In this document: piece after piece, positions 736 to 19,412 of the stretch
Layout: every line of letters starts with the position of its first letter
How positions within the stretch are numbered: position 1 is the stretch's first letter
DNA from: a virus
Reading direction: 5' to 3' (one strand)
Virus record (IMG/VR): IMGVR_UViG_3300039412_001175
Span: 1-20,937 of that record
DNA: 20,937 nt
Translations under genes and position numbers: made by a program
Notes under the pieces: model-generated
Told to the model about the DNA's origin: nothing
Databases searched by the model: none
The model's input: the letters and a program-made list of their open reading frames with translations, nothing else

Positions 736-1062
736 CGACCCTGGCCGACGCCGGCAAGGAGCTAACCACGATGGCTCCCGATGAGTCGCTCTGGCAGGCA
801 GCAGCACGGCCGGAGGGGGTCACGAGCGGAACGTTCTACTCGCGCTTTCGACGGTACCTAAAGACGTCTGGCCTGGCGCCCACCGGCATCCACGTCCTAA
901 GGCACACCGCAGCCAAGCTTCGTCGCGACGCCGGCGAGTCGATCGAGGACGTGAGCGCGTTCCTAGACCACAGCTCGCTGGCGGTCACTACGGTCTATCT
1001 GCGCCGGCTGGAGGGCCAGGAGGATCGGGCCTGGCGTGATGTGGCCGAGGCTATCGGGGTCT
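735..1062 (+). pseudogene. Tyrosine recombinase (integrase), C-terminal remnant
   Basis: This encodes the last ~109 residues of a phage-type integrase. It is about 93% identical by hand alignment (8 differences) to the end of the complete recombinase at 14501-15436. The catalytic HxLRHT block, the LDHSS block and the TTVY nucleophile tyrosine region are all still present, but the N-terminal DNA-binding half and the first catalytic arginine are missing. Similarity starts abruptly at about 735 (TTLADAGKEL). It stops exactly at the final GV of the intact protein. The frame then runs out of phase into a serine recombinase remnant and stops at 1193. It should be inactive. Confidence 0.85.
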
Positions 1063-1065
1063 GTG

Positions 1066-1856: not shown

Positions 1857-2242
1857 TGCCCTGGCGTCCCGCCTCACCCTGCCCACGCTGCCATCGGATC
1901 GGTGGCTGCGCCTGTCCCAAGCGAGCACCGGACACCCGTCCTTCGGCGGCTCGGCGTGGGTATGGGAGAGCGCATCAGGCAGAGCGTCGGCGCTGGGAGA
2001 CTGCGGTGGCGGAGGGCCTCGTCGACTGCGCCCGGTGCGGTCGACCAATCCTCCCCGGTGAGGCATGGGACCTCGGACATGCCGATGACCGGGCAAGCTG
2101 GACAGGGCCGGAGCACGCCCGCTGCAACCGCGCGGCACCCCGACGGGTGGCAAAGAATGCCCTTTTCGCGATCCCCGTAGACCGTGGCGCCCGCTTCGTG
2201 TGCGTGCATCCAGGTTTCGCCAATTTGGGAGATTGGCCATGA
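1856..2242 (+). CDS. HNH endonuclease, packaging-associated type
   Basis: A 128-residue protein. Its core, CARCGRPILPGEAWDLGH followed by a GPEHARCNR element, matches the short HNH nucleases found next to terminase genes in many phages. There the nuclease acts with the terminase when packaged DNA is cut (established for HK97-like phages). A second cysteine cluster (CPRC, CAC) sits near the N-terminus and may bind zinc. The start at 1856 has a good ribosome site (AGGTGAAGG), and the stop overlaps the methyltransferase ATG (ATGA). The equivalent place in the other element copy lacks the whole nuclease core but keeps the last ~29 codons (NKALFATPVDRDARL...), so this gene is a gain here or a loss there. 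Confidence 0.8.
   Translation: MPWRPASPCPRCHRIGGCACPKRAPDTRPSAARRGYGRAHQAERRRWETAVAEGLVDCARCGRPILPGEAWDLGHADDRASWTGPEHARCNRAAPRRVAKNALFAIPVDRGARFVCVHPGFANLGDWP
2155..2192 (+). repeat. Direct repeat unit B inside the 3' end of the HNH gene
   Basis: Second copy of the ~37-bp unit at 1761-1797. Together they bracket the HNH nuclease core, and both are also present, degenerate and much closer together, at 8391-8513 in the other element copy. Confidence 0.7.
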
Positions 2243-3453
2243 GCGCTAACGCTCCCTGGCGTTCCCGGATCGTCGGACACGGTGAGGAGCCGCCGGATCA
2301 GCTCCTGGCCAATCCCCGCAACTGGCGCCGCCATCCGGCAGTGCAACGCGAGGCCCTGCGAGGCTCCCTCGACACCGTCGGCTGGGTCGCCCAGATCCTG
2401 GTCAACCGCACCACAGGACACGTGATCGACGGCCATGCCCGGATCGAGGAGGCGCTCAGCCGCGGCGAGCCATCGGTCCCAGTCCTCCACGTTGAGCTAT
2501 CCGAAGCCGAGGAGGCTCTCGTCCTCGCGACGATCGATCCCATCGCGGCGATGGCGATCGCCGAGCAGTCGGTCCTCGACGAGCTGCTCGCCTCCCTATC
2601 GGTCGACGACGCCGGCCTCGCGGCCCTCCTGGCGGATCTCGCGGGCGATCTGCCCAAGGCCGGCCTGACCGACCCAGACGAGGCACCGCAGGTACCGGAG
2701 CAGCCATACATCAAGGCTGGCGAACGCTGGGTCCTTGGGCAGCATCGTCTCCTCGTCGGCGATGCCACCAAGCCCGACGACGTGGCCCGGCTCATGGGCG
2801 GTGTGAGCGCGGAGTGCATGTGGACCGACCCACCGTACGGGGTCGAGTACGTCGGCAAGACACGAAGGGCGCTGCGGATCGTCAACGACGAAGCCGAGCT
2901 GGGTCCGGCGGTCTTCGCCGCCGCGGCTCGGGTGGCCCCACTGGCGCCCTCGGCCCCCTTCTACGTCACCGTGCCGGCCGGACCCCGTCAGCTCGACTTC
3001 CTGCTGGCGATCCGCGATGTCGGCTGGCGCCTCCATCAGGAGCTCGTCTGGGTCAAGAACAGCATCGTGCTGGGACACTCCGACTACCACTACGCCCACG
3101 AGCCGATCCTCTATGGCTACACGGCGGGTCCGGGCCGACCCGGACGCGGTGCGCATGCTGGCACCCATTGGTATGGCGACAACTCGGCCTCGAGCGTGCT
3201 CGAGTACGACAAGCCGGCGCGCAGTCTGGAGCACCCTACGATGAAGCCGGTCGGCCTGATCGAGGCGTGTCTGGCCAATAGCAGCCGATCGGGCGACGCA
3301 GTGTACGAACCGTTCGCGGGCTCGGGCTCGACCCTGATCGCGGCCGAACGACTCGGGCGGCGCTGCTACGCGATCGAGATCGACCCCCGCTACGCCCAAG
3401 TCGTCATAGAGCGCTGGGCGGCGTTCAGCGGTCTGGAGGCCGTCCGTGGGTAG
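2239..3453 (+). CDS. ParB-domain DNA adenine methyltransferase
   Basis: A 404-residue predicted N6-adenine methyltransferase of the beta class. Residues ~20-115 form a ParB/sulfiredoxin-like domain (NPRNWRRHP, VINR-type TGHVIDGHAR). The catalytic DPPYG motif is at ~197-201 and the S-adenosylmethionine motif FAGSGST at ~359-365; the order catalytic-then-AdoMet is typical of the group. I start it at the ATG at 2239, because it has GGGAG six bases upstream and overlaps the HNH stop; an in-frame GTG at 2200 is less likely. No restriction enzyme lies nearby, so it is an orphan modification enzyme, perhaps protecting or marking element DNA. It is ~88% identical, without gaps, to the gene at 7131-8345. 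Confidence 0.9.
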   Translation: MSANAPWRSRIVGHGEEPPDQLLANPRNWRRHPAVQREALRGSLDTVGWVAQILVNRTTGHVIDGHARIEEALSRGEPSVPVLHVELSEAEEALVLATIDPIAAMAIAEQSVLDELLASLSVDDAGLAALLADLAGDLPKAGLTDPDEAPQVPEQPYIKAGERWVLGQHRLLVGDATKPDDVARLMGGVSAECMWTDPPYGVEYVGKTRRALRIVNDEAELGPAVFAAAARVAPLAPSAPFYVTVPAGPRQLDFLLAIRDVGWRLHQELVWVKNSIVLGHSDYHYAHEPILYGYTAGPGRPGRGAHAGTHWYGDNSASSVLEYDKPARSLEHPTMKPVGLIEACLANSSRSGDAVYEPFAGSGSTLIAAERLGRRCYAIEIDPRYAQVVIERWAAFSGLEAVRG

Positions 3454-3925
3454 GCGGGGTCCGGCACCGCTGCCGACAAGAGTCAAGCTCCTCCACGGTG
3501 AGACTCGGAGAAGCCGGCTGAACCTGCGAGAGCCACTCCCGGCGACCGACGTACCGGTCATGCCGTCCGATCTGCTAGAGGCCGCCAAGCCGATCTGGGA
3601 GCGGGTCTTGGCCGCCCAGGCCCCGGGCGTGATCCTGGCCGCCCATGCCGAGGTGTTCCGGATCTACTGCGAGTCGGCTGCTCGCTATGCGGAGGCCTCG
3701 AACCTGCTGGCTCGCTCGGGGCTGCTGCTGCGCGACGGCCATCACGGTGGCGCGCCGGTGAAGAACCCGCTGTGCCAGATCGTGCGCGACAACGCCGACC
3801 AGGTCCGGGTCCTCGCCCGTGAGCTCGGTCTCACACCTAGCTCGCTCTCGGGCGTCCACGCCGCGCCTGCGCCACAGGACTCGGCGATGCTCGCCCTGCT
3901 CACCCCGAGGGGGCGAACCGGATGA
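3446..3925 (+). CDS. terS: Phage terminase small subunit, P27 family
   Basis: The 159-residue protein begins GRRGPAPLPTRVKLLHGET and has the helical core EAAKPIWERVLA...ILAAHAEVFRIYCESAARYAEA, both typical of P27-type (Terminase_4) small subunits. These proteins recognise the packaging site and recruit the large ATPase/nuclease subunit. The GTG start at 3446 overlaps the methyltransferase stop by eight bases (GTGGGTAG), and the stop overlaps the next ATG. It is about 94% identical to the copy at 6659-7138 (10 differences). No large subunit, portal or capsid gene follows, which is unusual for a true prophage packaging locus. Confidence 0.85.
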   Translation: MGRRGPAPLPTRVKLLHGETRRSRLNLREPLPATDVPVMPSDLLEAAKPIWERVLAAQAPGVILAAHAEVFRIYCESAARYAEASNLLARSGLLLRDGHHGGAPVKNPLCQIVRDNADQVRVLARELGLTPSSLSGVHAAPAPQDSAMLALLTPRGRTG

Positions 3926-4329
3926 GGCGGCGACGCGAGCTGGCACGACGGGAGTCGGCCGATCAGCCAGCCCGGACGCCGTCGGCCCACGTGCGGCCCG
4001 TGTCGGGCTCACGCGCGGAGCTAGGGGCGCGAGCCGAAGTCCGCCGTCAGGTGCTCGAGTCGCTGAACCGGCCCCTGCGAGCAACCGAGCCGGAACGGTG
4101 GGCCATCCGCTATCTCGAGTCGAGCCGCAGACTGCCGCCGACCGTCTCCGCGCCAGTCCCTCCCGCGGACCAGGTCAGGCTCGCCTATGCCCAAGCCGAC
4201 CAGATCGTCGGCGCGATCACCGCGGTCCTCGATGGCCTCGGGCTATCGGCGGAGGACCGGGAGCGCGGCCGCAAGCTCGCCGCGGACGCCCTCCGAGCCG
4301 CCTCGGTCGAAGGCTGGTGCCCGCTGTGA
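3922..4329 (+). CDS. Unknown protein coupled to TerS (ORF135)
   Basis: A 135-residue protein whose ATG overlaps the TerS stop (ATGA). The first ~40 residues are basic and probably disordered (MRRRREL, SADQPAR). The rest is predicted helical, with conserved islands EPERWAIRYLESSR and QIVGAITAVLDGLGL followed by DRERGRKLA. It matches the protein at 6255-6662 over its full length but is only ~77% identical (31 differences), the fastest-diverging gene of the shared block. No family is recognised. Tight coupling with TerS suggests a DNA-packaging or DNA-binding partner, which is inference. Confidence 0.75.
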   Translation: MRRRRELARRESADQPARTPSAHVRPVSGSRAELGARAEVRRQVLESLNRPLRATEPERWAIRYLESSRRLPPTVSAPVPPADQVRLAYAQADQIVGAITAVLDGLGLSAEDRERGRKLAADALRAASVEGWCPL

Positions 4330-4390
4330 GCGCCACACACGATGGCGAGATAGAGCCCAAGCAGCGGCCTGTGCCCAGCAGAGGTTGGCC

Positions 4391-4810
4391 ATGCTAGGGC
4401 CCCGCTGCAGTGCCCAGACCGCCGATGGCCGAGCGTGTCCGGCGACCCCGTTGCGCGATGAGCCGTACTGCTTCTGGCACTCCCCCGACCACAGCGCCGA
4501 GGCTGCCGAGGCCCGTCGCCTGGGCGGACTGCGCCGACGCCGTGAGAAGACGCTGTCAGGCGCATACGACTTCGCCGGGCTAGAGAGCATCGAGTCGATC
4601 CGGCGCATCCTCGAGATCGCCACCCTCGATGCCTTGGGACTCGACAACTCGATCGCCCGGGCAAGGGTCCTGATCGCCGCGGCAATGGCCGCCACGAACC
4701 TGCTCAAGGTCGGCGAGTTCGAGGAGCGCCTGACCGCCCTCGAGGCGGCACTCGGCCAGGGGCACGCCCACCAAGAGGACACCGCCTTCCCCGACGAGCC
4801 AGCCCGATGA
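4391..4810 (+). CDS. Unknown protein with N-terminal Cys/His zinc-knuckle-like motif
   Basis: A 139-residue protein. Residues ~5-31 carry RCSAQTADGRACPATP and YCFWHSP, giving the pattern C-x9-C-x10-C-x2-H, a putative zinc site seen in many short phage- and island-encoded proteins near terminase genes. A basic linker (RRRREK) and a helical C-terminal part with an EIATLDALGLDN segment follow. The ATG at 4391 is preferred over 4187 because the earlier start would overlap ORF135 by 140 bases and because AGAGG lies just upstream. The stop overlaps the next gene (ATGA). No counterpart exists in the second element copy. Confidence 0.65.
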   Translation: MLGPRCSAQTADGRACPATPLRDEPYCFWHSPDHSAEAAEARRLGGLRRRREKTLSGAYDFAGLESIESIRRILEIATLDALGLDNSIARARVLIAAAMAATNLLKVGEFEERLTALEAALGQGHAHQEDTAFPDEPAR

Positions 4811-5622
4811 CTCTGGATCGACGGCTCGCCAAGATCGACGAGACGCTCTCGCCTACGCAGCTCGTCCTCCGCTGGCTGGCCGAGGCCCATAGCTACGGCG
4901 ACCTCGTGCCCTACGTGAACTCCCTCCTAGCCCAGGACCCACCAGTGGCACCGCTGGATCGCCTGGCCCGGGAGGCCGTCCACGGGGCTCGGTCAGCAAT
5001 GCGCGGCAAGCGTCCTGAGGTCATTGACGGCGCAGTCCGTAGCGCCCTGCGCGAGACGGTCTTCCGCTTCGAGCTCGTGATGCGTATCAACGTGACCGCC
5101 AAGGAGCTACTCGACCGGGAGGAGCTCGTCGCGGCGCTCTTCGCCTCGCAGCTCGCGATGCTCTTGAACGAGGATGGCGGGAAACGTCTTGCGGACGACT
5201 CCTACCTGAGCCGCCTCGAGCTATGCCGTCGCCTGACTCTCCTTCGAGTGAACGAGCTGCTCGCATCCCGCGACGCACGCTCGAGCGTCGAGGCCCGCTA
5301 CCTCGACGGACACCCCGCCCTCTTTCCGGACGTTGCCACCGCGTTCGAGGAGCAGCTACACCAGAGTCAGGAGATCGCGGTCATGGCCATGCACGCCGCC
5401 GAGCTCGACGGCGTCGAACCCGCGCCGCCCGAAGATCCGGATGTCCTCAAGGTCCGGGCGGGAGAACTCGTCGCGGACCTCGTAGAGCCGGCCAAGTCCG
5501 AGGCGCTCGACAAGCTCGGCGAGGGCAGGCAGGCGCTCGACATCGCGGCTGACTGGGTGCGGGCGAAGATGACGCCGAGAACGGTCGCCGTGGATGAGCC
5601 GGTCAGAAAGAACCAGCCGTGA
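4807..5622 (+). CDS. Unknown helical protein, 271 residues
   Basis: Translationally coupled to the zinc-knuckle-like gene by an ATGA overlap. The sequence is charged and almost wholly alpha-helical, with segments such as LDRRLAKIDETLSPTQLVLRWLAEAHSYG at the N-terminus and LLDREELVAALFASQLAMLLN in the middle; there is no signal peptide or membrane segment. I do not recognise a family. The N-terminal 'TLSPTQLVLRWLAEA' pattern recurs, from memory, in uncharacterised proteins of Chloroflexota islands. It is the last gene of this element copy and is missing from the other. A role in replication, packaging or helper interference would be guesswork. Confidence 0.65.
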   Translation: MTLDRRLAKIDETLSPTQLVLRWLAEAHSYGDLVPYVNSLLAQDPPVAPLDRLAREAVHGARSAMRGKRPEVIDGAVRSALRETVFRFELVMRINVTAKELLDREELVAALFASQLAMLLNEDGGKRLADDSYLSRLELCRRLTLLRVNELLASRDARSSVEARYLDGHPALFPDVATAFEEQLHQSQEIAVMAMHAAELDGVEPAPPEDPDVLKVRAGELVADLVEPAKSEALDKLGEGRQALDIAADWVRAKMTPRTVAVDEPVRKNQP

Positions 5623-5691
5623 TTGCCGCCGAGCTGGTGAGGGACCGGTCGCGACTTGACGGAGACTCGGGACGGCCTATCTTTGGCCTCG

Positions 5692-6223: not shown

Positions 6224-6251
6224 CCCGACACGATGACACCATCGTGCGGGG
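6224..6251. terminator. Hairpin between convergent genes, candidate terminator
   Basis: CACGATG (6229-6235) and CATCGTG (6240-6246) pair perfectly around a 4-base loop, and after a 2-base mismatch CCC/GGG (6224-6226, 6249-6251) can extend the stem. It lies 4-31 bases after the stop of the - strand gene ending at 6255 and 62 bases after the + strand gene ending at 6162. No strong U-tract is visible on either side, so intrinsic termination is plausible but unproven. Confidence 0.45.
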
Positions 6252-6254
6252 GTT

Positions 6255-6662
6255 TCACAGCGGACTCCAGCCTTCGACCGCGACGGCTCGGAGCGCCCCT
6301 GCGGCGAGCTTGCGCCCCCGCTCTCGGTCCCCCGCCGACAACCCGAGGCTGTCGAGAACCGAGGTGATCGCGCCGACGATCCGGTCGGCCTGGGCCTCGG
6401 CGAGCTTGACCTGCTCGGGTGGAGGGACGGGCGCCGAGATGGTCGGCGGCAGGCTGCGGCTCGACTCGAGATAGCGGATGGCCCACCGTTCCGGCTCAGG
6501 TCCTCGCAGGGGCTGGTTCAGGGTCCCGTGCGCCCGCTGCAGGACTTCCTCTCGGGCGCCAAGCTTGGCCCGTGAGCCCGACACGGGCCCCACGTGGGCC
6601 GACGGCATCCGGGCTGGCTGATCGGCCGACTCCGGTCGTGCCGGCTCGTGTCGCCGCCTCAT
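6255..6662 (-). CDS. Unknown protein coupled to TerS (ORF135, copy 2)
   Basis: Same length as its partner at 3922-4329 and ~77% identical, with the conserved islands EPERWAIRYLESSR and DRERGRKLA intact and most changes in the basic N-terminal tail and a short middle segment. Its ATG overlaps the TerS stop. It is the last gene of the - strand operon; the two genes that follow it in the other copy are absent, and a hairpin comes directly after the stop. Maintenance of the frame despite heavy substitution indicates purifying selection and therefore a working gene. Function unknown. Confidence 0.75.
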   Translation of the reverse strand: MRRRHEPARPESADQPARMPSAHVGPVSGSRAKLGAREEVLQRAHGTLNQPLRGPEPERWAIRYLESSRSLPPTISAPVPPPEQVKLAEAQADRIVGAITSVLDSLGLSAGDRERGRKLAAGALRAVAVEGWSPL

Positions 6663-7138
6663 CCGGTTCGCCTCCTCGGGGTGAGAAGGGCGAGCATCGC
6701 CGAGTCTTCCGGCGCAGGCGCGGCGTGGACGCCCGAGAGCGAGCTGGGCGTGAGACCGAGCTCACGGGCGAGGACCCGGACCTGGTCGGCGTTGTCGCGC
6801 ACGATCTGGCACAGCGGGTTCTTCACCGGAGCGCCGCCGTGATGGCCGTCGCGCAGCAGCAGCCCCGAGCGAGCCAGCAGGCTCGAGGCCTCCGCATAGC
6901 GAGCAGCCGACTCGCAGTAGATCCGGAACACCTCGGCGTGAGCGGCCAGGATCACGCCCGGGGCCTGGGCGGCCAGGACCCGTTCCCAGATAGGCTTGGC
7001 GGCCTCCAGCAGATCGTCGGGCATGACCGGTACGTCGGCCGGCGGGTGTGGCTCGTTGCGGTTGAGGCGCGAGGGCCGAGTCTCACCGTGGAGGAGCTTG
7101 ACCCTGGTCGGCAGAGGTGCCGGACCGCGCCTACCCAC
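6659..7138 (-). CDS. terS: Phage terminase small subunit, P27 family (copy 2)
   Basis: The 159-residue product is nearly identical to the + strand copy; its ten differences lie mainly at residues ~20-40. The GTG start at 7138 overlaps the methyltransferase stop, and the TGA overlaps the next ATG, as in copy 1. The central ILAAHAEVFRIYCESAARYAEAS and the QVRVLARELGLTPSSLSGV helix-turn region are unchanged between copies, which points to constraint on DNA binding or oligomerisation. This second TerS also has no large subunit within reach. Confidence 0.85.
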   Translation of the reverse strand: MGRRGPAPLPTRVKLLHGETRPSRLNRNEPHPPADVPVMPDDLLEAAKPIWERVLAAQAPGVILAAHAEVFRIYCESAARYAEASSLLARSGLLLRDGHHGGAPVKNPLCQIVRDNADQVRVLARELGLTPSSLSGVHAAPAPEDSAMLALLTPRRRTG

Positions 7139-8345
7139 GGACGGCCTCCTCGCCTGTGAAGGCTCCCCAGCGCTCGATCGTGACCTGGGCGTAGGCGGGA
7201 TCGATCTCGATCGCATGGCAGCACCGGCCCAGTCTCTCGGCCGCTATCAACGTGGAGCCCGAGCCCGCGAAGGGTTCGTAGATCGCGTCGCCCGCGCGGG
7301 TGCTGTTGGCCAGGCACTCCTCGACGAGAGCGACGGGCTTCATCGTTGGGTGCTCGATGCTCCTGGCTGGCTTGTCGTACTCGAGGACGCTGCTGGCTGA
7401 GTTGTCGCCATACCAGCGGGTTCCGGCATGCGCGCCACGTCCCGGTCTCCCCGCGCCAGGTGTGTAGCCATACAGGATCGGCTCGTGGGCGTAGTGGTAG
7501 TCGCTATGTCCGAGCACGATGCTGTTCTTGACCCAGATGAGCTCCTGATGAAGACGCCAGCCGACATCGCGGACTGCGAGAAGGAAGTCGAGCTGTCGCG
7601 GTCCGGCAGGGACGGCGACGTAGAAGGGGGCCGAGGGCGCCAGAGGCGCAACACGACACGCTGCGGCGAAGACGGCCGGGCCCTGCTCCGCCTCGTCGTT
7701 GGCGATCCGCAGCGCTCTGGCGGTCTTGCCGACGTAGCCGACCCCGTATGGCGGGTCCGTCCACATGCACTCCGCGGTCGCCCCGTCGGTGAGCCTGGCC
7801 ACGTCCTCGGGCTTGGTGGCGTCGCCACACAGGAGGCGATGCTGCCCAAGGAGCCACAGCTCACCGGGCTTGACGTATGGCTGCTCCGGAGGTTCGGGAG
7901 CCTCGTCGGGGTCGGTCAGGCCGGCCTTGGGGATATCGCCTGCGAGATCGGCCAGGAGGGCAGCGAGACCGGCATCGTCGACCGATAGGTCGGCCAGAAG
8001 ATCGTCGAGGACCGACTGTTCGGCGATCGCCATCGCGGCGATGGGATCCAGTGTCGCAAGAACGAGCGCCTCTTCCTCTTCGGATAGCTCGACGTAGAGC
8101 ACCGGCACCGAGCGCTCGCCCCGGCTGATCGCCTCCTCGACCCGGGCGTGACCGTCTACGACGTGCCCGGTGGTGCGGTTGACCAGGATCTGCGCAACCC
8201 AGCCGACGGTGTCGAGGGAGCCCCGCAGGGCCTCTCGTTGCTCTGCCGGATGCCGCCGCCAGTTGCGCGGGTTGGCCAGGAGCTGATCCGGCGGCTCCTG
8301 GCCGTGCCCGACGATCCGGGAGCGCCAGGGAGCGTTAGCGGTCAT
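7131..8345 (-). CDS. ParB-domain DNA adenine methyltransferase (copy 2)
   Basis: 404 residues, ~50 differences from copy 1 and no gaps. The ParB-like domain, DPPYG and FAGSGST motifs are all intact, so the enzyme should be active. Changes concentrate in the linker between the ParB and methyltransferase domains (EAPEPPEQPYVKPGELWLL region) and in the stretch before DPPYG. If target recognition differs between the two copies, the variable segment after DPPYG and around GYTPGAGRPGR is where I would look. The ATG at 8345 overlaps the preceding ORF's stop (ATGA) and keeps the same GGGAG ribosome site seen in copy 1. Confidence 0.9.
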   Translation of the reverse strand: MTANAPWRSRIVGHGQEPPDQLLANPRNWRRHPAEQREALRGSLDTVGWVAQILVNRTTGHVVDGHARVEEAISRGERSVPVLYVELSEEEEALVLATLDPIAAMAIAEQSVLDDLLADLSVDDAGLAALLADLAGDIPKAGLTDPDEAPEPPEQPYVKPGELWLLGQHRLLCGDATKPEDVARLTDGATAECMWTDPPYGVGYVGKTARALRIANDEAEQGPAVFAAACRVAPLAPSAPFYVAVPAGPRQLDFLLAVRDVGWRLHQELIWVKNSIVLGHSDYHYAHEPILYGYTPGAGRPGRGAHAGTRWYGDNSASSVLEYDKPARSIEHPTMKPVALVEECLANSTRAGDAIYEPFAGSGSTLIAAERLGRCCHAIEIDPAYAQVTIERWGAFTGEEAVRG

Positions 8346-8647
8346 GGCCAATCTCCCAAATTGGCGAAACCTGGATGCACGCACACGAGGCGGGCGTCAC
8401 GGTCTACGGGGGTCGCGAAAAGGGCTTTGTTTGCGAGGGGCAGTGTCGCGAGTCGCAATATCTCTCGCGGAAACGGGGCGTCTCGGTCCCTGCCATCGGC
8501 GAAAGGGCTTTGCGAGTGAGCTGGCATCTTTGCTACCACGGGCCTCACGTCGAGCCGACCTCCGCCCGTTCGCCAGATACCCCACTCGCGGTGCCTTCGC
8601 CCCACACGCGGGCTCACAGGGCCCGACGTCGCAACGGGGCCGGTCAT
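8342..8647 (-). CDS. Small unknown protein, 101 residues; deletion-joined relative of the small ORF plus HNH tail
   Basis: The ATG at 8647 overlaps the serine recombinase stop and the TGA overlaps the methyltransferase start. The first two thirds resemble the 84-residue ORF of copy 1 (REWGIWRTG, LDVRP, SPFADGRDRDAPFPREI). The last ~29 residues match the end of the HNH protein (NKALFATPVDRDARLVCVH). The nuclease core, including all HNH residues, is absent. It is thus either an ancestral single ORF into which an HNH gene inserted in copy 1, or a fusion left by deletion of that gene. Functionality of the product is uncertain; it may mainly pass ribosomes to the methyltransferase. Confidence 0.5.
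   Translation of the reverse strand: MTGPVATSGPVSPRVGRRHREWGIWRTGGGRLDVRPVVAKMPAHSQSPFADGRDRDAPFPREILRLATLPLANKALFATPVDRDARLVCVHPGFANLGDWP
8391..8513 (-). repeat. Degenerate direct repeat pair matching the HNH-flanking repeats
   Basis: Units at about 8391-8430 and 8472-8513 correspond to the repeats at 2155-2192 and 1761-1797. Here only about 40 bp separate them, against 357 bp in the other copy. Confidence 0.55.
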
Positions 8648-10182
8648 GCCGACCTGGCCCGTGCAGCCGCCAACCACTCATCGCGGCCTTCGATGGGAAT
8701 TCGGTAGGTTGTTAACGCGTGTCCAACTCCTGTCGGGCGCGCTTTAACCACCACCTCGGGCAGCGCCAGCGCCAGGCCGTGGGCGTAGGCGGCCGGAGTG
8801 AGGCGCCCCGACACGAACTCCCGCCCGGCGACGACGATCCGCTCGTAGACCGCGTGGATGAGTTCGCCCTTCGCCTCCGGGATGTCGGCTTGCTGCCAGG
8901 TCTCCGCGAGGGCGCGCAGCCAGGCCACTGCCCGATCCGCGGGCACGCCCATCTGCGCAGTCTCTTCCACCTCAGCCAGTGAGGCTCGGAGTTGCTTCAA
9001 GCGAGCGAGGTAGGTCTCGTCGCTGATCCCGCCACCGACGTGCTCGAGCGCCAGCTCCCGCATCTGGCGCTCGATCCGGGATCGGTCGATGGCCACCGGT
9101 CTCTTGGTGGAACCGAGGGCAGCCACGACTCGGGCGATGACGCCGTCGTTGAGATCGATGCCGCCGAGCTGAGCAAGGATCGGGAGATCCCAGGCCTCGG
9201 CCGGTATGCGGGCCTTGGGACCCCACGCCGGGCATGGCTTGGGGTGGAGCTTTCGGGGCTTTCGGTCGGCCGCGGCGCCGTCGCTGCGGACCCGACGACC
9301 GCACACGCAGTGAAGCAGCCCGCCCAAGAGATCGACTCGGTCGCGGCGGCGCGGACCGCTGCCTCGGCACTTGGCCCGCCTGACCTCCTCGACTCTGGCC
9401 CACAACTCGTCGGAGACCGGCGGGTTCGAGCGCCAGGGCGCGGGCTTCCGGGTTTCGTTGCGCCCGCGGTGTCTGCGTATCCAGCCGTTGTAGATCGGGT
9501 TCATCAAGATGCAGCGGATGCGCGACGCCTCAAGGCCTGTTTCGAGGGCGAGCTGCCGGGCGCTGACCGTGCCCAGGGCATAGCGCTCGAAGAGCCCGAC
9601 CGCGACCGCGATGCTGGCTGGGTTGATCTCGAGGGTATTGGGCGGCTCGGGCGATCGTCGTAGCCCCAACCCTGCATGGCCGCCCGGATCGTTCTCCTGC
9701 TCGAACTTGGCGGCGTAGCCCTCGGTGATCCGCTCCGAGAGCCGTCGGCTGTAACGCTCTGCACTTGCGGACTCGGCCACAAGCTCATCCCAGTCGTGGG
9801 GGTCGGAGCTCAGGATGCGCCGGTCGCACATGACCAGGGCGACGCCTGCCGGATGCAGATGGTCTTCGAGCAGCTCAAGGGTCCGGCGCAGGTTGCGCTG
9901 CCAGCGATCGCTGTATCCGGCCAGGAGAAGGTCGAACCCTCCTGCCTTGGCCTCGGCGAGCATCTGGGTCATCGTCGCCGAGCGCCAGACCGTGGTGCCG
10001 CTGTGGGCCACCTGAAACACCCGGCCTGTATCGATGAGACCGTAACGCTCGATGAAGCGGTCCTGCTGCTCGCGCTGGCTGGCGGGTCCGAACCGGTCGT
10101 ATTGACCGGCCGTGCTCTCGCGGATCCAGCGGGCGGCCCGCAGGCCCCGGATGTCGTCGAGAGAGCGCGGCAGTTGCTTCAT
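8644..10182 (-). CDS. Large serine recombinase
   Basis: A 512-residue site-specific recombinase. The resolvase domain has the nucleophile serine at ~23 (WIRESTAGQ) and the arginine motif SDRWQRNLRR. A recombinase domain follows (GLGLRRSPEPP, ILMNPIYNGWIRRHRGR, DELWARVEEVR), then a cysteine-containing ribbon (LLHCVCGRRV, KPCPAWG) and a coiled-coil C-terminal region. The ribbon shows three clear cysteines instead of the usual four, which may weaken metal binding. Such enzymes integrate and excise phages and islands. Here it lies inside an operon, not at an element edge: its ATG overlaps the 59-residue ORF and its stop overlaps the next ORF. Copy 1 keeps only its C-terminal third. Confidence 0.92.
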   Translation of the reverse strand: MKQLPRSLDDIRGLRAARWIRESTAGQYDRFGPASQREQQDRFIERYGLIDTGRVFQVAHSGTTVWRSATMTQMLAEAKAGGFDLLLAGYSDRWQRNLRRTLELLEDHLHPAGVALVMCDRRILSSDPHDWDELVAESASAERYSRRLSERITEGYAAKFEQENDPGGHAGLGLRRSPEPPNTLEINPASIAVAVGLFERYALGTVSARQLALETGLEASRIRCILMNPIYNGWIRRHRGRNETRKPAPWRSNPPVSDELWARVEEVRRAKCRGSGPRRRDRVDLLGGLLHCVCGRRVRSDGAAADRKPRKLHPKPCPAWGPKARIPAEAWDLPILAQLGGIDLNDGVIARVVAALGSTKRPVAIDRSRIERQMRELALEHVGGGISDETYLARLKQLRASLAEVEETAQMGVPADRAVAWLRALAETWQQADIPEAKGELIHAVYERIVVAGREFVSGRLTPAAYAHGLALALPEVVVKARPTGVGHALTTYRIPIEGRDEWLAAARARSA

Positions 10183-10358
10183 GCCGCCCTGACCTTCCCG
10201 CTCTTGCGCATCCGAGGGATGTTCCCTCTGGCGTCAAGCGCCTCGGCGCGCATCTGGTCGGGGCCATCGGGGTATCGGGCGTGCAGGGCCTCGACGTAGC
10301 GGGCGAGGGCCAAGACAAGCTGATCGCGATCCGCGGGCAGCACAACCTGGCCGTTCAC
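10179..10358 (-). CDS. Small unknown protein, 59 residues, upstream of the serine recombinase
   Basis: GTG start at 10358 with a strong ribosome site (GGAGG at 10366-10370, seven bases upstream); the stop overlaps the recombinase ATG (ATGA). The product is VNGQVVLPADRDQLVLALAR at the start, then a helix and a basic C-terminal tail (RMRKSGKVRAA). No family is recognised. Its size, charge and position suggest a DNA-binding accessory or excision-type factor for the recombinase, which is inference. The strong ribosome site and coupling make it the likely first cistron of the six-gene operon running to 6255. Confidence 0.65.
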   Translation of the reverse strand: MNGQVVLPADRDQLVLALARYVEALHARYPDGPDQMRAEALDARGNIPRMRKSGKVRAA

Positions 10359-10419
10359 CTGAGACCTCCGCGGATCGCGAAGTCCAAGTCAGCCTCGCTG
10401 CCACGGGCTCCTCGGGGGT

Positions 10420-10509
10420 GAGCAGGGTGAGCAAAGACGCTGTTTCTGGGTCTCTTTCCAATACACGCGAAGAGGGAACCTGGGAATGGGCACAATGCTC
10501 CCCCTGCTC
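10420..10509. repeat. Inverted repeat between primase and the recombinase operon
   Basis: The 14-base arms at 10420-10433 and 10496-10509 pair with one mismatch (GAGCAGGGTGAGCA against GAGCAGGGGGAGCA) and are separated by 62 bases. They fill most of the gap between the primase stop (10522) and the 59-residue ORF's ribosome site. Possible roles are an operator or an RNA fold controlling the downstream operon. Apart from this I see no convincing gene in 10371-10521. Confidence 0.5.
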
Positions 10510-10521
10510 CCCCCTGCCGGC

Positions 10522-12792
10522 TCATTCGGCGGGCCTCCGCACGATCAGCCCCTCATACACCGGGCTGCCGTGGACTTTGCGCCGGTGCACGGGGAAGCCA
10601 AGCCGATCATGGCGCTCGGTGAACGCTCGTCCGAAGACTGGCGCGGCCATGGCCTTGGACCCGATCGAGCCAGCCCAGGCCACGTAGGCCTCGTAGATCT
10701 TGGGTCCAGGGGTTGAGGCACCCGCCTGCGAGACGACCCATTCGCGCAGAAACCCACCGATGGGATCCTCATCCTCTTGGTAGGCAGCCGTCTCGCGCGC
10801 GACGGCGGTCGGAAACGGGTAGAGGGTCCCGGCGGTCGCATAGGCCACGGCGCCTCGGACAGCCCAGGCGAGGATGCCGCGGGCCTCGCCGGCGAGGACG
10901 GCCGCGAGACCCGGATCTTCGGCCGGACCGTCGCTTGCCTCGCCCCGTTTCGCGAACCGCACCGTCCACGGGATCAGCGCGATCCTGCGCCAGAATCCCT
11001 CCGACGCATCGTCGGCGGCGGGCAGATGGTTGGTCGCGAGATGGAGGGTATGGCTGGGTGGCCACTCCTCCTGGCGCCCATGTAGCTCGCGACCGGTCAT
11101 CAGATCGATTGAGGCGAGGCGCTTGAGAACTCCACCCTTGAACTTCGCCCCCTGCTCTGGTTCGCTCGTAAAGGCCAGGCGTGCTCCACGAAGGCGCATG
11201 AGATCAGAGGTTGGTGCGCCGGCGGTTCGGTTGGCGTTGAGCAGCGTCTCGACCGCGACTTCGAGGCTGTAGTCGCCTGCCATCTCACGACCGAGGGTCC
11301 GGAAGGCCACCGACTTACCGTTGTTGCCCGTGCCGTAATGGACGGCGAGCAGCTCCTTGGACGTGCCGACGAGCGATGCGCCGATCAGCCGGGCGAACCA
11401 GCTGATGAGGTCCTCGTCGCCGGCGAAGACCTCCACAAGAAACCGATCCCAGCGCGGGCACGTCGCCCGAGGGTCGTAGTCGAGTCGGGTGGATCGACTG
11501 ACCATATCCTCTGGTCGTCCCACCCGCAGGGCTCCGGTGCGGAGGTCGACCAGGCCGTTCTCGCAGCCAAGGATCCAAGGATCGGGGTCCCAGGCGTCGC
11601 CGGTTGTTGCAACGGGCTTCATCGCCGCAGTGATCCGAAGACCCGCCGCGATCGCGTCGTCGGTTGCGCCCGCAGCCATGATCGCGGCGACCGTCCGCTC
11701 GCGCATCTCGCCATCGGCAATTAGGAGCGCTTCGCTGTACCTCTCGCCGAGCGCCGCGAGCCATCGCCTGCGGATCTCCTGGTCCCGATCCGGGCGCCAG
11801 CGATGGCCATGCCAGATGAGCCAGATCCGTCGGCCATGGTCGAACCGGACCTCGTCTCCTCTCCGTTGGGCGAAGTGGTAGGCGGCGAGCGATTGACGGC
11901 TCAGATGATCGATCTGGCCGACAGTTCCCTCCGCAGGTTCCTCTTCGGCACCAGAACCCTCATCCTCAGGGTCGGGCAGCGGGCCGCCCTCGCCCTGGCC
12001 AGCCCGAGCCTGGGTTTGCTCACCTGGTGGTTTGCGCCCGATCGAGGCCGCGATCGTTTGGACCTCGTCTTCGTCCAAGGGTGGTCGGCACTGCAGCCGG
12101 TTGGCCTCGAGGAGCGCAGCGAGGATGACCGGCGCTGACGCCCCACGGCGGCGCATCGAGCCCGCGAGTGAGGCAAGGGTTGCATTGCGCTGACCCTCGA
12201 TGATCACATCGGGGATCGGACGCGCAGCGCCAACCCGGTCGAGGCCCCGACCGTCTCCCACGAGATCGCAAATCCAGGCTGGAGCCTCGGCGATACCTTC
12301 CTCGGGCTCGCGGAGCCAGCGGTACTGGCGGCCACTATGGTGCAGCGAGGGGGGCGCGACGAGATAGCTGCCCGGGCCTCGCAGGTCGACCTTTGGGAGG
12401 ATGGCGACCTTGGGTCCTATCTGTTCGGCCGTCCGATACAAGTAGTGACGGCCGCGCCCAGTTTCGACGGTGGCGGTCTCTGGTAGGGCGTAACCGCGGG
12501 CCCGGAGGGCATCCACGCCTTCGGGCCCGTCGATGTCGACTGCGACGATGCCAAAGGGCATCGCGATCCCGACGTTCGCGTCGGGCCACATTGCCCACCA
12601 CGCACGTATCTGATCGATGTCGGTGGTCGCATCGAGTAGGCCGCTCCTCGTCCGCGGGTGCTTGCCCTGTGCCGAGCACTCGGGGCGGCGGCAATCACAG
12701 ACGCCGTCGACCGGCGTGTGCAGGGGGATTACCGCCCAGCCCGCGGCTGCCATTGTCAGAGCGCCCTCGAGAAGGGCGGGCAGCGAGTTCAT
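10522..12792 (-). CDS. PrimPol-SF3 helicase replication protein
   Basis: A 756-residue bifunctional primase/polymerase and helicase. The N-terminal PrimPol domain (about residues 1-210) has a CDCRRPEC...GKHPR cluster, the metal-binding DID at ~86-88 and GRGRHYLYR. A D5-type region follows (RIWLIWHGHRWRPD, LGCENGLVDLRTG). The C-terminal SF3 ATPase has Walker A GTGNNGKS at ~486-493, the FTSEPEQG acidic motif and ATNHLPAADDASEGFWRRI with sensor Asn and Arg finger. Such proteins start and unwind replication of satellites, plasmids and prophages. I use the ATG at 12792; an in-frame GTG at 12852 is possible but would cover one operator arm. Copy 1 lost this gene. Confidence 0.92.
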   Translation of the reverse strand: MNSLPALLEGALTMAAAGWAVIPLHTPVDGVCDCRRPECSAQGKHPRTRSGLLDATTDIDQIRAWWAMWPDANVGIAMPFGIVAVDIDGPEGVDALRARGYALPETATVETGRGRHYLYRTAEQIGPKVAILPKVDLRGPGSYLVAPPSLHHSGRQYRWLREPEEGIAEAPAWICDLVGDGRGLDRVGAARPIPDVIIEGQRNATLASLAGSMRRRGASAPVILAALLEANRLQCRPPLDEDEVQTIAASIGRKPPGEQTQARAGQGEGGPLPDPEDEGSGAEEEPAEGTVGQIDHLSRQSLAAYHFAQRRGDEVRFDHGRRIWLIWHGHRWRPDRDQEIRRRWLAALGERYSEALLIADGEMRERTVAAIMAAGATDDAIAAGLRITAAMKPVATTGDAWDPDPWILGCENGLVDLRTGALRVGRPEDMVSRSTRLDYDPRATCPRWDRFLVEVFAGDEDLISWFARLIGASLVGTSKELLAVHYGTGNNGKSVAFRTLGREMAGDYSLEVAVETLLNANRTAGAPTSDLMRLRGARLAFTSEPEQGAKFKGGVLKRLASIDLMTGRELHGRQEEWPPSHTLHLATNHLPAADDASEGFWRRIALIPWTVRFAKRGEASDGPAEDPGLAAVLAGEARGILAWAVRGAVAYATAGTLYPFPTAVARETAAYQEDEDPIGGFLREWVVSQAGASTPGPKIYEAYVAWAGSIGSKAMAAPVFGRAFTERHDRLGFPVHRRKVHGSPVYEGLIVRRPAE

Positions 12793-12896
12793 CCAGGGAA
12801 GCGCCTGCCGCTCATTCCTGGATGGTAGCGGGCCTGCCACAGCGAAGGCCACAAACCGCTACCATTGGCGGTCACATTTGCGCGGGAGGCGGGTTG
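12793..12896. promoter_or_regulatory. Divergent control region with a perfect 10-bp inverted repeat
   Basis: The 104 bases between the divergent primase and HTH genes contain ATGGTAGCGG (12822-12831) and its exact reverse complement CCGCTACCAT (12856-12865), with 24 bases between them (centre to centre 34 bp, about three helical turns). This is a good candidate operator for a dimeric regulator controlling both directions. No clear -35/-10 pair could be fixed by eye. Confidence 0.6.
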
Positions 12897-13640
12897 ATGG
12901 AGTGGCGGCCGAAACCTGCGATGTCGTTCGGCAAGCCTGGCGATCCGGCCAGCTTCGGCGTCGTGTTCCCGTTCTCGTGGCGTCACGGCGCAATCGCTGG
13001 GCAGGGCTATGTGATCTACCGAGGGTTGGGCGGTCGGGTTGAGCCGGTCGGGCTCTCGATCGGCGATCCGGGTACGGGAGGAGCGGTCATTCCTAACGGG
13101 CCCCAGCCGCGTGTCACGACGACGATCCTTCGGCTCTTGCCTCTCGGAGCGATCGTTGCGGCTGGCGGAAAGGAGGCAGCCGCGTTGAGGGACGCTGTTC
13201 TCGCCGCCCAATCCTTGACGATGGCTCTGCCGCTGACGCCCGGGGAGGTGGCAGAGGCCAAGGAGAAGGGCATCCCCCTTCTGCATCTCCAAGGGTTCAC
13301 CATGATGAACGAGGCGGAGGCTGCGGATGCTGTGGCTGCCATGGCTGAATTTGCGGCCCTGTTCTCGGTTGGACCGGGCACTAGGCGGACCGGTCCGAAG
13401 GCGCGCCCCGATAGCCACTACCGAGCGGTCGCCGCGATCTACTCTCAAGCCGATCGTAAAGGCCGCAACCCGGTCCAGGCAGTCCGGGAAATGTACCGCG
13501 AGGCGACCGGCGTTCTTGTACCTCGCTCGACCGCCTCGCGCTGGGTGCGCCGGGCCGAGAAGAAGGGCTTCCTTGGGCCAGCGCCCGGTCCCGGCAGGAT
13601 CGGCCGCGCTCTCCCCGAGCCCCCCGACGGGGACGGTTAG
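12897..13640 (+). CDS. Putative DNA-binding regulator with C-terminal helix-turn-helix-like region
   Basis: The 247-residue protein starts at the ATG at 12897, with GGGAGG seven bases upstream; the frame is open further 5' but overlaps the primase. The N-terminal ~170 residues are of unknown family (FGVVFPFSWRHGAIAGQGYVIYRG, MTMALPLTPGEVAEAKEKG-like middle). The C-terminal part, DSHYRAVAAIYSQADRKGRNPVQAVREMYREA followed by PRSTASRWVRRAEKKGFL, looks like the replication-initiator or transposase-type HTH in which STASRWVRRA is the recognition helix. It is the only + strand gene inside the longer element and is divergent from the primase, the classic place for a life-cycle regulator. Function is inferred from position and HTH only. 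Confidence 0.65.
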   Translation: MEWRPKPAMSFGKPGDPASFGVVFPFSWRHGAIAGQGYVIYRGLGGRVEPVGLSIGDPGTGGAVIPNGPQPRVTTTILRLLPLGAIVAAGGKEAAALRDAVLAAQSLTMALPLTPGEVAEAKEKGIPLLHLQGFTMMNEAEAADAVAAMAEFAALFSVGPGTRRTGPKARPDSHYRAVAAIYSQADRKGRNPVQAVREMYREATGVLVPRSTASRWVRRAEKKGFLGPAPGPGRIGRALPEPPDGDG

Positions 13641-13777
13641 GGCCTCGGATTCCAAGGGCACCTTCCGGCCCCGGTGGTCTGTCACGCCTCTTTGGGCCTC
13701 CCGCCTGTGCGGGCCGCGACTACTGTCGCTGGCGCTCGGAGGATCGCAGGCGGGATGGGTGGTCGTATCTGGGTGAC

Positions 13778-14227
13778 CTAGTTTCGAGCCCCGGTTCCTT
13801 TGCTGCGACGCGGACGACCGCCCCGAAGGCGACCGCTGTAGGCATCGACGAGTTCGCTTGCAAGGGACGCCGCTGCGCGGCGGAGCTTGGGCGGCACTCG
13901 GTCCCAATGGACAGTGACGCTCACCGGCTGCACGCTCTCATCCACGACCACGCTGCCTCTTAGGGCCTCGAGGGTGGCCGTACCACGGGCCCAGTAAGGC
14001 AGGATCTGGTTGATACCGTCAGCTCGGCGGGTCCCATCACTCCGACGAGTGCCGAGCACTAGTTCTTCGACCAGTAGGTCATTGCCCTTCCGATAGGCGG
14101 CGAGCACGTCCGCCATGCGCTCGAGGCCAATTGCGGCCTTGATCCGAAGCGTTCGAGGCAGATCCGCGTCCTGAGCCACCCGCTCGAGATCAGCGATGAG
14201 GTGTAGCAGGGGCTCTTCGTCACGCAC
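13778..14227 (-). CDS. Unknown protein, 149 residues
   Basis: The GTG start at 14227 has no obvious ribosome site. The protein is helical at the N-terminus (HLIADLERVAQDADLPRTLR, IGLERMADVLAAY), has a variable middle and ends in a basic tail (RLRGGRPRRSKGTGARN) suited to nucleic-acid binding. No family is recognised. It lies between the integrase and the HTH gene, convergent with the latter; 137 bases separate their stops. It has no copy-1 counterpart because that region is deleted there. Codon use matches its neighbours, which supports a real gene. Confidence 0.6.
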   Translation of the reverse strand: MRDEEPLLHLIADLERVAQDADLPRTLRIKAAIGLERMADVLAAYRKGNDLLVEELVLGTRRSDGTRRADGINQILPYWARGTATLEALRGSVVVDESVQPVSVTVHWDRVPPKLRRAAASLASELVDAYSGRLRGGRPRRSKGTGARN

Positions 14228-14500
14228 GGCTGTTTGAGCCTACATCGAGGGACAGCCACCTTCTCGTGGCCGGCCCCGGCTACGAGATCAGGACGCCTGC
14301 GGCAGCGCCCTCACCGGGTCGCTCACCGTCGTACGGCTTGGGCCTGGTCGGAGCCCGACCAGAAATGCAACCTAATCTTGAGGGCCCGGACTCCACGTAC
14401 AGGTCCAGACTACCGATATCGTGGCCGCCCCCTCCCCCAAGGGCGGTCGTCTCCTCTGAGCCCGTCACCTGCTCCCTCGGGCGGCGGGGCTCTTCTGTTG
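14228..14500. other. Non-coding stretch downstream of the integrase with several palindromes
   Basis: No convincing ORF lies in these 273 bases. There is a perfect 8-bp palindrome with a 3-base loop (CTGGTCGG-AGC-CCGACCAG, 14344-14362) and a CCGCCC/GGGCGG hairpin near 14425-14446. Just after the integrase stop there is also a GAGCCC/GGGCTC pair (14458-14463, 14487-14492). These may be a terminator, regulator sites or part of an attachment region; I found no tRNA here. Confidence 0.35.
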
Positions 14501-15436
14501 CTAGACCCCGATGGCCTCGGCGACGTCGCGCCACGCCCGATCCTCTTGGCCTTCTAAGCGGCGCAAGTACACCGTCGTGACCGCGAGTGAGCTGTGGTCG
14601 AGGAATGCGCTCACGTCCTCGATCGACTCCCCGGCATCCCGCCGAAGCTTGGCGGCGGTGTGACGCAGGACGTGGATGCCAGTTGGTGCCAGGCCAGCGA
14701 GTCGTAGGTAGCGGCGGAAGCGGGCGTAGAACGTCCCGCTCGTGACGCCAGAGGGTCGCGCCGCGGCCTGCCAGAGGGACTCGTCGGGGGACATCGAGGT
14801 CAGCTCCTTGCCGACGTCCGCGAGCGTGGTGCAGATGGCCTCATAGGCAGGGTGAGGGAGTTCCCGGCGACCTCGCTTGCCGCCCTTGCCCCGATAGGAG
14901 TAGAAGCAGGTCTCGCCCTCGAGGCTGAGATCACCTGCCCGTAGGTCGATGACCTCCGAGCGGCGGCGGCCGGTTAGAACAAGCGTGAGCAGGATCGCTC
15001 GGTCGCGTCGACCGGCCACCGTGTCGGGAACAACCGCCAGGAGCCGTCGCACCTCGTCGGCGCCGTATCCCCGTGCAACAGACTGAACACTCCGCGGCCG
15101 CTCGACGGCATCGCATGGGTTGGAGATGACCAGCCCCATCCTGATCAGGAAGCGGTAGAAGGATGACAGGCAGGCGATCCGGGCTCCGACTGTCGTCGAA
15201 GAAGGCGTCCGCCCCGACTTGCCGATGCCGTGCACCCAGGCCAGGACATCGGCTGGCTTGACCCTGTCGGGCGTCTTGCCGAGATCGCCGAAGAACGGCC
15301 AGAGCATCCTGCCGTACGACTCGACCGTCCGCCGGGAACCGGAGCGGTTGCCCTTCTCGACGAGGAAGGCGTAGAGGGCCTGGTCCCAGGCCGACGGGTC
15401 GCCGCTGGCTAAGGCGGGGAGGGGTTGAGCGGTCAT
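14501..15436 (-). CDS. Tyrosine recombinase, element integrase
   Basis: A 311-residue phage-integrase/XerC-like enzyme. It has an N-terminal SAM-like core-binding domain (residues ~10-105; TVESYGRMLWPFFGDLGKTP), then the catalytic domain with Arg in TGRRRSEV (~157), the Lys-containing RGKGGKRG loop, HVLRHTAAK (~254), LDHSSL and the tyrosine in TTVY (~289). All expected catalytic residues are present, so it should be active. I chose the ATG at 15436; a GTG at 15478 after AGGCGG would add 14 residues. It is the outermost element gene on this side and probably marks the right boundary. A 109-residue remnant of a close homologue sits at 735-1062. Confidence 0.92.
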   Translation of the reverse strand: MTAQPLPALASGDPSAWDQALYAFLVEKGNRSGSRRTVESYGRMLWPFFGDLGKTPDRVKPADVLAWVHGIGKSGRTPSSTTVGARIACLSSFYRFLIRMGLVISNPCDAVERPRSVQSVARGYGADEVRRLLAVVPDTVAGRRDRAILLTLVLTGRRRSEVIDLRAGDLSLEGETCFYSYRGKGGKRGRRELPHPAYEAICTTLADVGKELTSMSPDESLWQAAARPSGVTSGTFYARFRRYLRLAGLAPTGIHVLRHTAAKLRRDAGESIEDVSAFLDHSSLAVTTVYLRRLEGQEDRAWRDVAEAIGV

Positions 15437-15547
15437 CGTGGGCGCCTCGGGTGCGAGATGGTCGCCTACATCGATCACTCAGCCGCCTGCGGAAAGCAAC
15501 ACCATGGCCAAATCGTCTATGGGTATCCGGGGACCACAGCCCGAGTA

Positions 15548-17701: not shown

Positions 17702-17962
17702 TCACCCTATCGCGGCATAGGGGCGGTTGAACGGCGGCGCGTCGAAGAGCGGGGTCAGATCGGCGACCGCGCGTGGGACGGAGGTCTGGGCGCAAAGCGG
17801 AGCCATCCGACCGTAGAGACTGATGGCCACGAACGGCTCCACATCAGGGAGATCGACCACTCGAGCGGCCAAGGTGCCCGCAACGCGTGGACTGACCTCG
17901 AACGCTGTCTTGGATGAGTATCTCGTGGTCACTTCGGGCAGAGGTTCCAGCTGCCAGCTGGG
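17702..17962 (-). pseudogene. Remnant resembling an endonuclease/exonuclease/phosphatase-family protein
   Basis: An 86-codon fragment opens after a TAA at 17963-17965 and ends at a TAG at 17702. It carries LPEVTTRYSSKTAFEVSPRV and FVAISLYGRMAPLCAQTSVP, then RAVADLTPLFDAPP. This resembles the part of endonuclease/exonuclease/phosphatase-fold proteins just before the GGDLN catalytic motif, which is missing here. No start with a ribosome site is seen. It is probably an internal piece of a decayed chromosomal gene; the family assignment is from memory and tentative. Confidence 0.4.
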
Positions 17963-18128
17963 TTACTCCCGCGGAGCAGAAAGAGTTACATCAGATCGAG
18001 CTTCCGTTGGGCTGGCGAGTCCCACTCGCTCCGGGACGAGATTGTTGTCCCCAGCGGACGCGTCTGCCTCATCATATGGACCGGGTCCTTCTGCTCGCGC
18101 TCTCGAGCTGAGACGGAGGGAGACAGAC

Positions 18129-19412
18129 ATGAATGGGGTGCTCGCCGTCGTGCTGGCAGGCGGAGCCGGTGAGCGGCTCTCCTGCCTGTCCGCGATCCGC
18201 TCCAAGCCGGCGGTCCCTTTCGGAGGCAAGTTTCGGCTGATCGACTTCAGCCTCTCGAACTGCGTCAACTCCGACATCGACGACGTGCTGGTCCTCGCGC
18301 AGTTCAACCCCCGTTCGCTTATCAATCACATCGGAACGGGACGTCCGTGGGACCTCGACCGGATGCGCGGAGGGGGCATCAAGATCCTCCAGCCGTACAT
18401 GTCCAAGGAGCATACCGGCTGGTACCAGGGCACGGCCGACGCGGTGCGCTACAACCTCCACGAGATCGACCAGGACGGCGCCGAGCTGGTCCTCGTGCTG
18501 GCCGGCGACCACATCTACAAGATGGATTACCGGCCGATGATCGCGGAGCACCGGCGGACAGGCGCGGGTGTGACCGTCGCCGTACGCACGGTGCCGCCGG
18601 CCGAGGCGTCGCGCATGGGCATACTCTCGCTCGACGCCGATGGCCGGGTGGTGGATTGGGAGGAGAAGCCGGCGGTCCCGAAGAGCGACCTAGCGTCGAT
18701 GGGCATCTATGTCTTCACCCGAGCCGCGCTCCATGAGTGGCTCGACGAATCACGTAGCGACTTCGGGCGCGACGTCATCCCGGCCATGCTGGCCGGCGGC
18801 GCTGCCGTCTTCGGCCATCGCTTCGACGGCTACTGGCGAGACGTGGGCACCATCGAGGCGTACTGGGCGGCCAACCTCGACCTGACCGCGCTGGTCCCCC
18901 AGCTCGACCTGTTCGATCGGAGCTGGCTCGTCCACACTCGTTCGGAGGAACGCTCGCCGGCCAAGATGGGCCCAGACGCGGTTGCGCGCCACTCGCTGAT
19001 CAGCCACGGCTGCATCGTCAATGGCACCGTCGTGAACTCGGTCCTCTCACCAGGAGTGAGGGTCTACGAGGGTGCTCTGGTTTGCGATTCGGTGGTGCTG
19101 CTCGATAGCGAGATCGGCCCGGGGGCCGTGGTCGACCGGGCGATCGTCGACAAGTTCGTCCACGTCGGTGCCGGCGCGGTCATCGGTTTCGGGGACGATC
19201 TCGGGACGCCCAACGTCGAGGAGCCCGAGCACCTCCGTAGCGGCATCACCGTGGTGGGGGAGCGAGCCCGGATCCCGGCGGGCGTGCGGATCGGACGCAA
19301 CTGCCTAATCGGGCCCTCGGTTGTCGAGTCGGACTTCCCGGGTCCGTTAGTCGAGTCCGGGGTATCGGTGAAGAGTTCGGACGGAGCGAGGATTTCGACG
19401 ACACCGACCTAA
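18129..19412 (+). CDS. glgC: Glucose-1-phosphate adenylyltransferase (ADP-glucose pyrophosphorylase)
   Basis: A 427-residue enzyme that makes ADP-glucose from ATP and glucose 1-phosphate, the committed step of bacterial glycogen synthesis in the cytosol. Recognisable motifs are GGAGERL (residues 11-17), SKPAVPFGGKFRLIDFSLSN (25-44), WYQGTADAVRYN, LAGDHIYKMDY, GIYVF and the GTIEAYWAANLDL substrate-site motif; a left-handed beta-helix with isoleucine/valine repeats makes up the C-terminus. The first motif lacks the usual PLT after RL (it reads SCLSAIRSK), a minor deviation. I start at the ATG at 18129 with GGAGGGAGAC upstream; the open frame extends to 17823 without support. No other glycogen gene is in the window. 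Confidence 0.95.
   Translation: MNGVLAVVLAGGAGERLSCLSAIRSKPAVPFGGKFRLIDFSLSNCVNSDIDDVLVLAQFNPRSLINHIGTGRPWDLDRMRGGGIKILQPYMSKEHTGWYQGTADAVRYNLHEIDQDGAELVLVLAGDHIYKMDYRPMIAEHRRTGAGVTVAVRTVPPAEASRMGILSLDADGRVVDWEEKPAVPKSDLASMGIYVFTRAALHEWLDESRSDFGRDVIPAMLAGGAAVFGHRFDGYWRDVGTIEAYWAANLDLTALVPQLDLFDRSWLVHTRSEERSPAKMGPDAVARHSLISHGCIVNGTVVNSVLSPGVRVYEGALVCDSVVLLDSEIGPGAVVDRAIVDKFVHVGAGAVIGFGDDLGTPNVEEPEHLRSGITVVGERARIPAGVRIGRNCLIGPSVVESDFPGPLVESGVSVKSSDGARISTTPT

Follow-up and report, generated by a model that had tools for sequence, protein, structure and literature searches.

A mosaic integrative island, probably from Chloroflexota, with a phage-type small terminase gene and no large terminase gene

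The small terminase subunit (TerS) of TerS-type SaPIs recognises the pac site of the island itself and works together with the large subunit (TerL) of the helper phage (PMC6893505; PMC10690885). In cfPICIs and in the Mulch and Flayer satellites, HNH and TerS genes are part of the packaging gene sets (PMC10690885); these satellites, unlike the locus described here, also encode TerL, portal and capsid proteins. Our locus resembles the type 1 SaPIs and Gram-positive PICIs in that it combines an integrase, a replication protein and a TerS of its own with the absence of TerL and capsid genes. It differs from them in several respects, since neither an stl/str-type regulator pair nor a capsid-size or Ppi gene was recognised, and since it possesses two recombinases and a ParB-type methyltransferase and belongs to a family most of whose members lack TerS. 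In addition, PICIs and SaPIs are intact elements with att sites, whereas both copies of the island described here have suffered deletions and no att repeats were found when they were sought. Literature searches within a limited collection of papers found no description of a satellite in Chloroflexota.

The window, i.e. the whole stretch of DNA that was analysed, corresponds to positions 1-20,937 (20,937 nt) of the IMG/VR virus record IMGVR_UViG_3300039412_001175. The region from 16.5 to 20.9 kb has a chromosomal look and contains a GlgC-like gene (17823-19412), so that the record apparently consists in part of host DNA. Judging from the relatives of the window genes, the host phylum is probably Chloroflexota. 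Our tentative reading is that the window represents bacterial chromosome in which one integrative island is present twice, in inverted orientation and with deletions in both copies, and that this island had gained a phage cassette including TerS and pirated the packaging machinery of a helper; taken jointly, these propositions fall a little short of an even chance. The anatomy of the island and its mosaic origin, as judged from the sequence, are held with high confidence.

The genes of copy B lie on the minus strand at the positions given in an earlier note on this DNA and extend from 15436, where INT starts, to 6255, where ORF135 stops; a divergent ORF lies on the plus strand. The tyrosine recombinase INT (14501-15436; 311 aa when translated from the ATG at position 15436; PF00589 Phage_integrase, E=6e-18) has counterparts of 87-90% identity in three loci of Chloroflexi. 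Upstream of it a conserved stretch (15437-15516, minus strand) marks the int-side edge of the element, as seen in an alignment of four loci and in the blastn endpoints at 15516, where homology to loci L013 and L016 ends. INT is followed by a 149-aa ORF (ORF149, 13778-14227) which has no Pfam or PHROG match and only sub-threshold NCBIfam scores, and by the divergent ORF (12972-13640). The latter had been called an HTH-type regulator, a designation which proved to be a guess, as neither Pfam nor PHROG gave a match; likewise, no divergent ORF matched a family in Pfam, PHROG or NCBIfam that would indicate an stl/str regulator pair or AlpA.

The replication protein (PrimPol; 10522-12852, 776 aa) has a PrimPol-PriCT-D5 (D5_N) architecture (PF09250, 1.1e-39; PF08706, 1.1e-26) and shows 77-83% identity to proteins of two viral contigs and one Chloroflexi MAG. 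Next come the serine recombinase SerRec (8644-10182, 512 aa; PF00239, 7.6e-11), with counterparts of 71% identity in L002 and L013, and an HNH gene region (8342-8677) from which about 0.3 kb is deleted in comparison with copy A (self-blastn gap 8434/8451 against 2150/1822). The ParB-like/N6_N4 DNA methyltransferase (MTase; 7131-8384, 417 aa; PF01555, 3.6e-18; phrog_498, 1.5e-103) has a ParB-like N-terminus, and its reading frame overlaps that of the P27-family TerS (6659-7138 for the 159-aa core, the longest ORF starting at 7216; PF05119 Terminase_4, 4e-15; NCBIfam TIGR01558 above the cut-off). ORF135 (6255-6662) has homologs in genomes G049, G047 and G006. Thus integrase, PrimPol-D5, MTase and P27 TerS, as listed in the earlier note, were confirmed by Pfam, PHROG and NCBIfam; the regulator was not, and a second copy of the island had been overlooked.

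This second, inverted copy (copy A, plus strand) was found by self-blastn at 733-5637 and is 77-87% identical to copy B. The matching segments are 6239-8434 with 4345-2150 (86.7% over 2.2 kb), 8451-9202 with 1822-1043 (76.7%) and 14503-14832 with 1062-733 (81.9%). In order, copy A comprises the C-terminal part of INT (733-1062, the 81.9% match to 14832-14503), the C-terminal part of SerRec (1043-1605, by self-blastn), which abuts the INT remnant directly, an HNH-like ORF of 128 aa (1856-2242) without a Pfam match above the cut-off but in the position where phage contig G001 has its HNH-like gene, MTase (2200-3453; 88% identical to copy B), TerS (3446-3925; 93-94%), ORF135 (3922-4329; 77%), ORF207 (4391-4810) and ORF271 (4807-5622). 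ORF207 belongs to the island-end module, has homologs in other genomes and is given here as its conserved 139-aa part, with a Cys/His-rich N-terminus; ORF271 is the last island gene, homology ending a few nucleotides past its stop codon.

Copy A lacks the N-terminus of INT, the ORF149/PrimPol region and the N-terminus of SerRec, and copy B lacks most of HNH, of which the 3' end is kept, together with the end genes ORF207 and ORF271. Homology between the copies stops 16 nt beyond the ORF135 stop of copy B, and because related elements end just after ORF271 and not after ORF135, copy B has been cut short. Both copies are probably immobile remnants themselves. As they have the same TerS-ORF135 junction, their ancestor was already without TerL. 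The dS values between the copies range from 0.2 (TerS) to 1.1 (INT), and given this unevenness the comparison may be distorted by gene conversion or mosaicism.

The absence of TerL, portal and capsid genes reported earlier was upheld, a PF03354 search of the whole record for TerL giving no match and Pfam and PHROG revealing no portal, capsid or tail gene in the window; genes for capsid size, interference or regulation were not recognised there either. Relatives which do continue into such genes exist in two contigs of siphophage type, G001 (IMGVR_UViG_3300037086_000245, 41.7 kb) and G002 (IMGVR_UViG_3300037076_000416, 71.2 kb). Their PrimPol is 77-79% identical to that of copy B, SerRec is shared with phage-type contigs at 71-84% identity, and both have the order HNH-MTase-TerS, followed by TerL, an SPP1-like portal, scaffold and capsid and then by tail genes (G001: TerL_ATPase 1.2e-20, SPP1_portal 9.5e-26, Phage_scaffold 5.8e-11, major head protein phrog_212 1.4e-56; G002: tape measure phrog_28 3.8e-8). 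The earlier note had held that relatives of this kind would refute the satellite reading. They were found for the block from PrimPol to TerS; the window INT and ORF135-ORF207-ORF271, however, were not detected by blast in G001 or G002, which have a different tyrosine integrase or none. G001 begins and ends within a serine recombinase gene (L006:1-899 and L008) and may therefore represent a circular genome, about 42 kb in size, with a short gap.

The second set of relatives consists of chromosomal islands. The window INT family (mostly 69-96% identity) was present in 17 of 177 genomes of one Chloroflexota class, with up to six copies per genome. In none of the 24 INT loci read were TerS, TerL, capsid, ORF207 or ORF271 found near INT, some of these loci being cut off by the end of their contig before the position in question. 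INT identity reaches 90-96% in islands such as L079 and L275. The latter (G006:C48) runs from INT to PrimPol (83%), SerRec (85%) and MTase, where the contig ends, and the former (G006:C68) has the same INT with another serine recombinase, an AAA_25 ATPase, MTase, ORF135, ORF207 and ORF271. ORF271 itself occurred in 23 of the 177 genomes, where the usual order was MTase-(ORF135)-ORF207-ORF271 and fragments were frequent; in other genomes ORF207 and ORF271 follow ORF135, and homology stops right after ORF271. It gave no match in the viral-contig scan, the phage records, Pfam or NCBIfam, and the AlphaFold models of ORF207 (pLDDT 55, pTM 0.32) and ORF271 (pLDDT 50, pTM 0.35) were poor. Short C-terminal fragments of ORF271 are numerous and scattered in G006, G047, G053, G044, G052 and G050, as if element ends had stayed behind. 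The islands L084 (G009), L229 (G051) and L231 (G085) share their host surroundings, namely a topoisomerase I-like gene ('IVESPAKAKTIERYLG') with the genes around it, which suggests an integration hotspot.

The end block ORF135-ORF207-ORF271 normally comes after an MTase without TerS. The window shares the traits of this family, namely the same INT and the block MTase-ORF135-ORF207-ORF271, which in copy A has TerS after MTase and in copy B is truncated. Unlike the window, the INT-SerRec-ORF271 islands carry an island-type methyltransferase and no TerS. The window MTase is 47-50% and its TerS about 55% identical to the phage-type versions, as against 36-38% between the window MTase and the usual island MTase. 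The island family is real and usually free of TerS, which is not a family trait.

These two sets of relatives bear on the possibility that the window harbours a decayed prophage, i.e. a G001/G002-like siphophage which lost everything from TerL to the tail genes by deletion, the remainder being a relic. The similarities of PrimPol and SerRec and the order HNH-MTase-TerS in common with contigs that carry TerL, portal, scaffold, capsid and tail genes would agree with such an origin, as would the deletions in both window copies. INT and ORF135-ORF207-ORF271, however, belong to the TerS-free islands, PrimPol and SerRec adjoin the same INT without phage genes in L013 and L275, and the TerL-less junction is common to both copies and was followed by selection on TerS, so that we consider this origin improbable. 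Its simplest form, a G001/G002-like prophage merely cut short, was demoted, the INT and ORF271 module being absent from the phage contigs.

Between the two TerS copies 15.8 of 39 changes are nonsynonymous (dN/dS 0.24; simple neutral model, P=5e-5; simulations, 0/500), which rejects neutral evolution for this pair and clearly points to purifying selection. Five other pairs of TerS without TerL gave dN/dS values of 0.16-0.42, compared with 0.04-0.29 for TerL-linked pairs, suggesting that TerL-less TerS are constrained, perhaps slightly less than TerL-linked ones. Single-protein scans of viral and genome contigs with TerS and ORF135 gave no match, and relatives were obtained with alignment queries. 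Among 78 labelled TerS sequences TerL lies downstream in 66 and not in 12, three of the latter (both L097 genes and L107) being close to a contig end, which makes the absence of TerL less certain for them. On the TerS tree the 12 are spread over several small clades whose members come from different samples, and the TerL-less state needs about 5 changes as against 11.4 in shuffles, a contrast inflated by near-copies.

An independent TerL-less locus on a viral contig (L091) reads PrimPol (60%)-...-MTase-TerS-TerS-ORF207 and thus has TerS in the same slot between MTase and ORF207 as the window; L097 shows a comparable MTase-TerS-TerS run, and its contig ends soon after. The tandems of two different TerS genes after MTase (L091:4339-5570 and L097:8438-9655) consist of the same pair of clades and come from two metagenomes. 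Genome G009 has three TerS genes, two of them near methyltransferases and one of these two beside restriction-modification cargo, and PF03354 detected no TerL there. Longer TerS ORFs of G009 were considered as TerS-ORF135 fusions, which was rejected, the extra residues being N-terminal in the alignment. A type IIG restriction-modification gene and a PLD/SNF2 helicase are present both in phage contig G001 (L007:8628-15295) and in the TerS-bearing G009 locus (L235:7305-14548).

With moderate confidence, we regard the island TerS as functional; its role in packaging is put at less than an even chance. The most serious competitor is that TerS is a passenger: the island would move by its recombinases and replication protein, only the captured methyltransferase would be useful, e.g. 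for self-protection, and TerS would ride along in an overlapping operon. Most of the island family has MTase without TerS, MTase and TerS overlap and hence travel together, and MTase is under stronger constraint (dN/dS 0.14 between the copies); TerS itself, however, is under clear purifying selection, and TerL-less TerS recur, two loci each holding a pair of different ones. On balance we find this explanation rather unlikely, though less so than a decayed prophage. Alternatively, TerS without TerL could be a decoy that poisons phage packaging and so defends host or island, the island remaining unpackaged. The defence cargo at related loci, namely the restriction-modification and helicase genes near TerS and MTase in G009, would be in line with this, and any use of TerS would fit the selection on it, but we know of no tested case of decoy activity of a P27 TerS lacking TerL, and we consider interference very unlikely.

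The reading we prefer, tentatively, remains that of a mosaic island with pirated helper packaging. Members of the island family begin with a tyrosine integrase and also have a replication protein, here PrimPol-D5, and a serine recombinase; some of them end in methyltransferase-ORF135-ORF207-ORF271. In the lineage of the window, an HNH-methyltransferase-TerS cassette of the siphophage kind, as in G001 and G002, would have replaced the usual methyltransferase. An intact ancestor common to both copies may then have been excised by its integrase and replicated by PrimPol, its TerS recognising island DNA and recruiting TerL and capsid from a phage that was infecting the cell or resident in it. Piracy of this type is proposed by analogy with TerS-type SaPIs and PICIs. 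The N-terminal 30 residues of TerS are 67-77% identical to those of TerL-linked relatives and the C-terminal tail only 21-38%, so the use of a G001-like TerL is not favoured.

As to the undescribed satellite family proposed earlier, the TerL-less TerS is indeed recurrent and under purifying selection, but TerS is found at none of the 24 INT loci and both window copies are damaged. The locus is therefore better described as a satellite-like variant within an island family than as a demonstrated new satellite family, with piracy being plausible. A wider proposal appears doubtful, namely that Chloroflexota hold a recurrent class of TerS-only satellites on INT/serine-recombinase islands, which would repeatedly capture siphophage HNH-MTase-TerS cassettes, sometimes with two different TerS in tandem, and in which ORF135, ORF207 and ORF271 would serve as partner functions.

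The combination of integrase, primase and TerS without TerL is insufficient to call a satellite family, because the closest members of this family lack TerS. If the TerL-less TerS is used for packaging, satellite piracy would reach a phylum from which few phages have been cultured, and the island would show how an ordinary island can turn into a satellite through one captured cassette.
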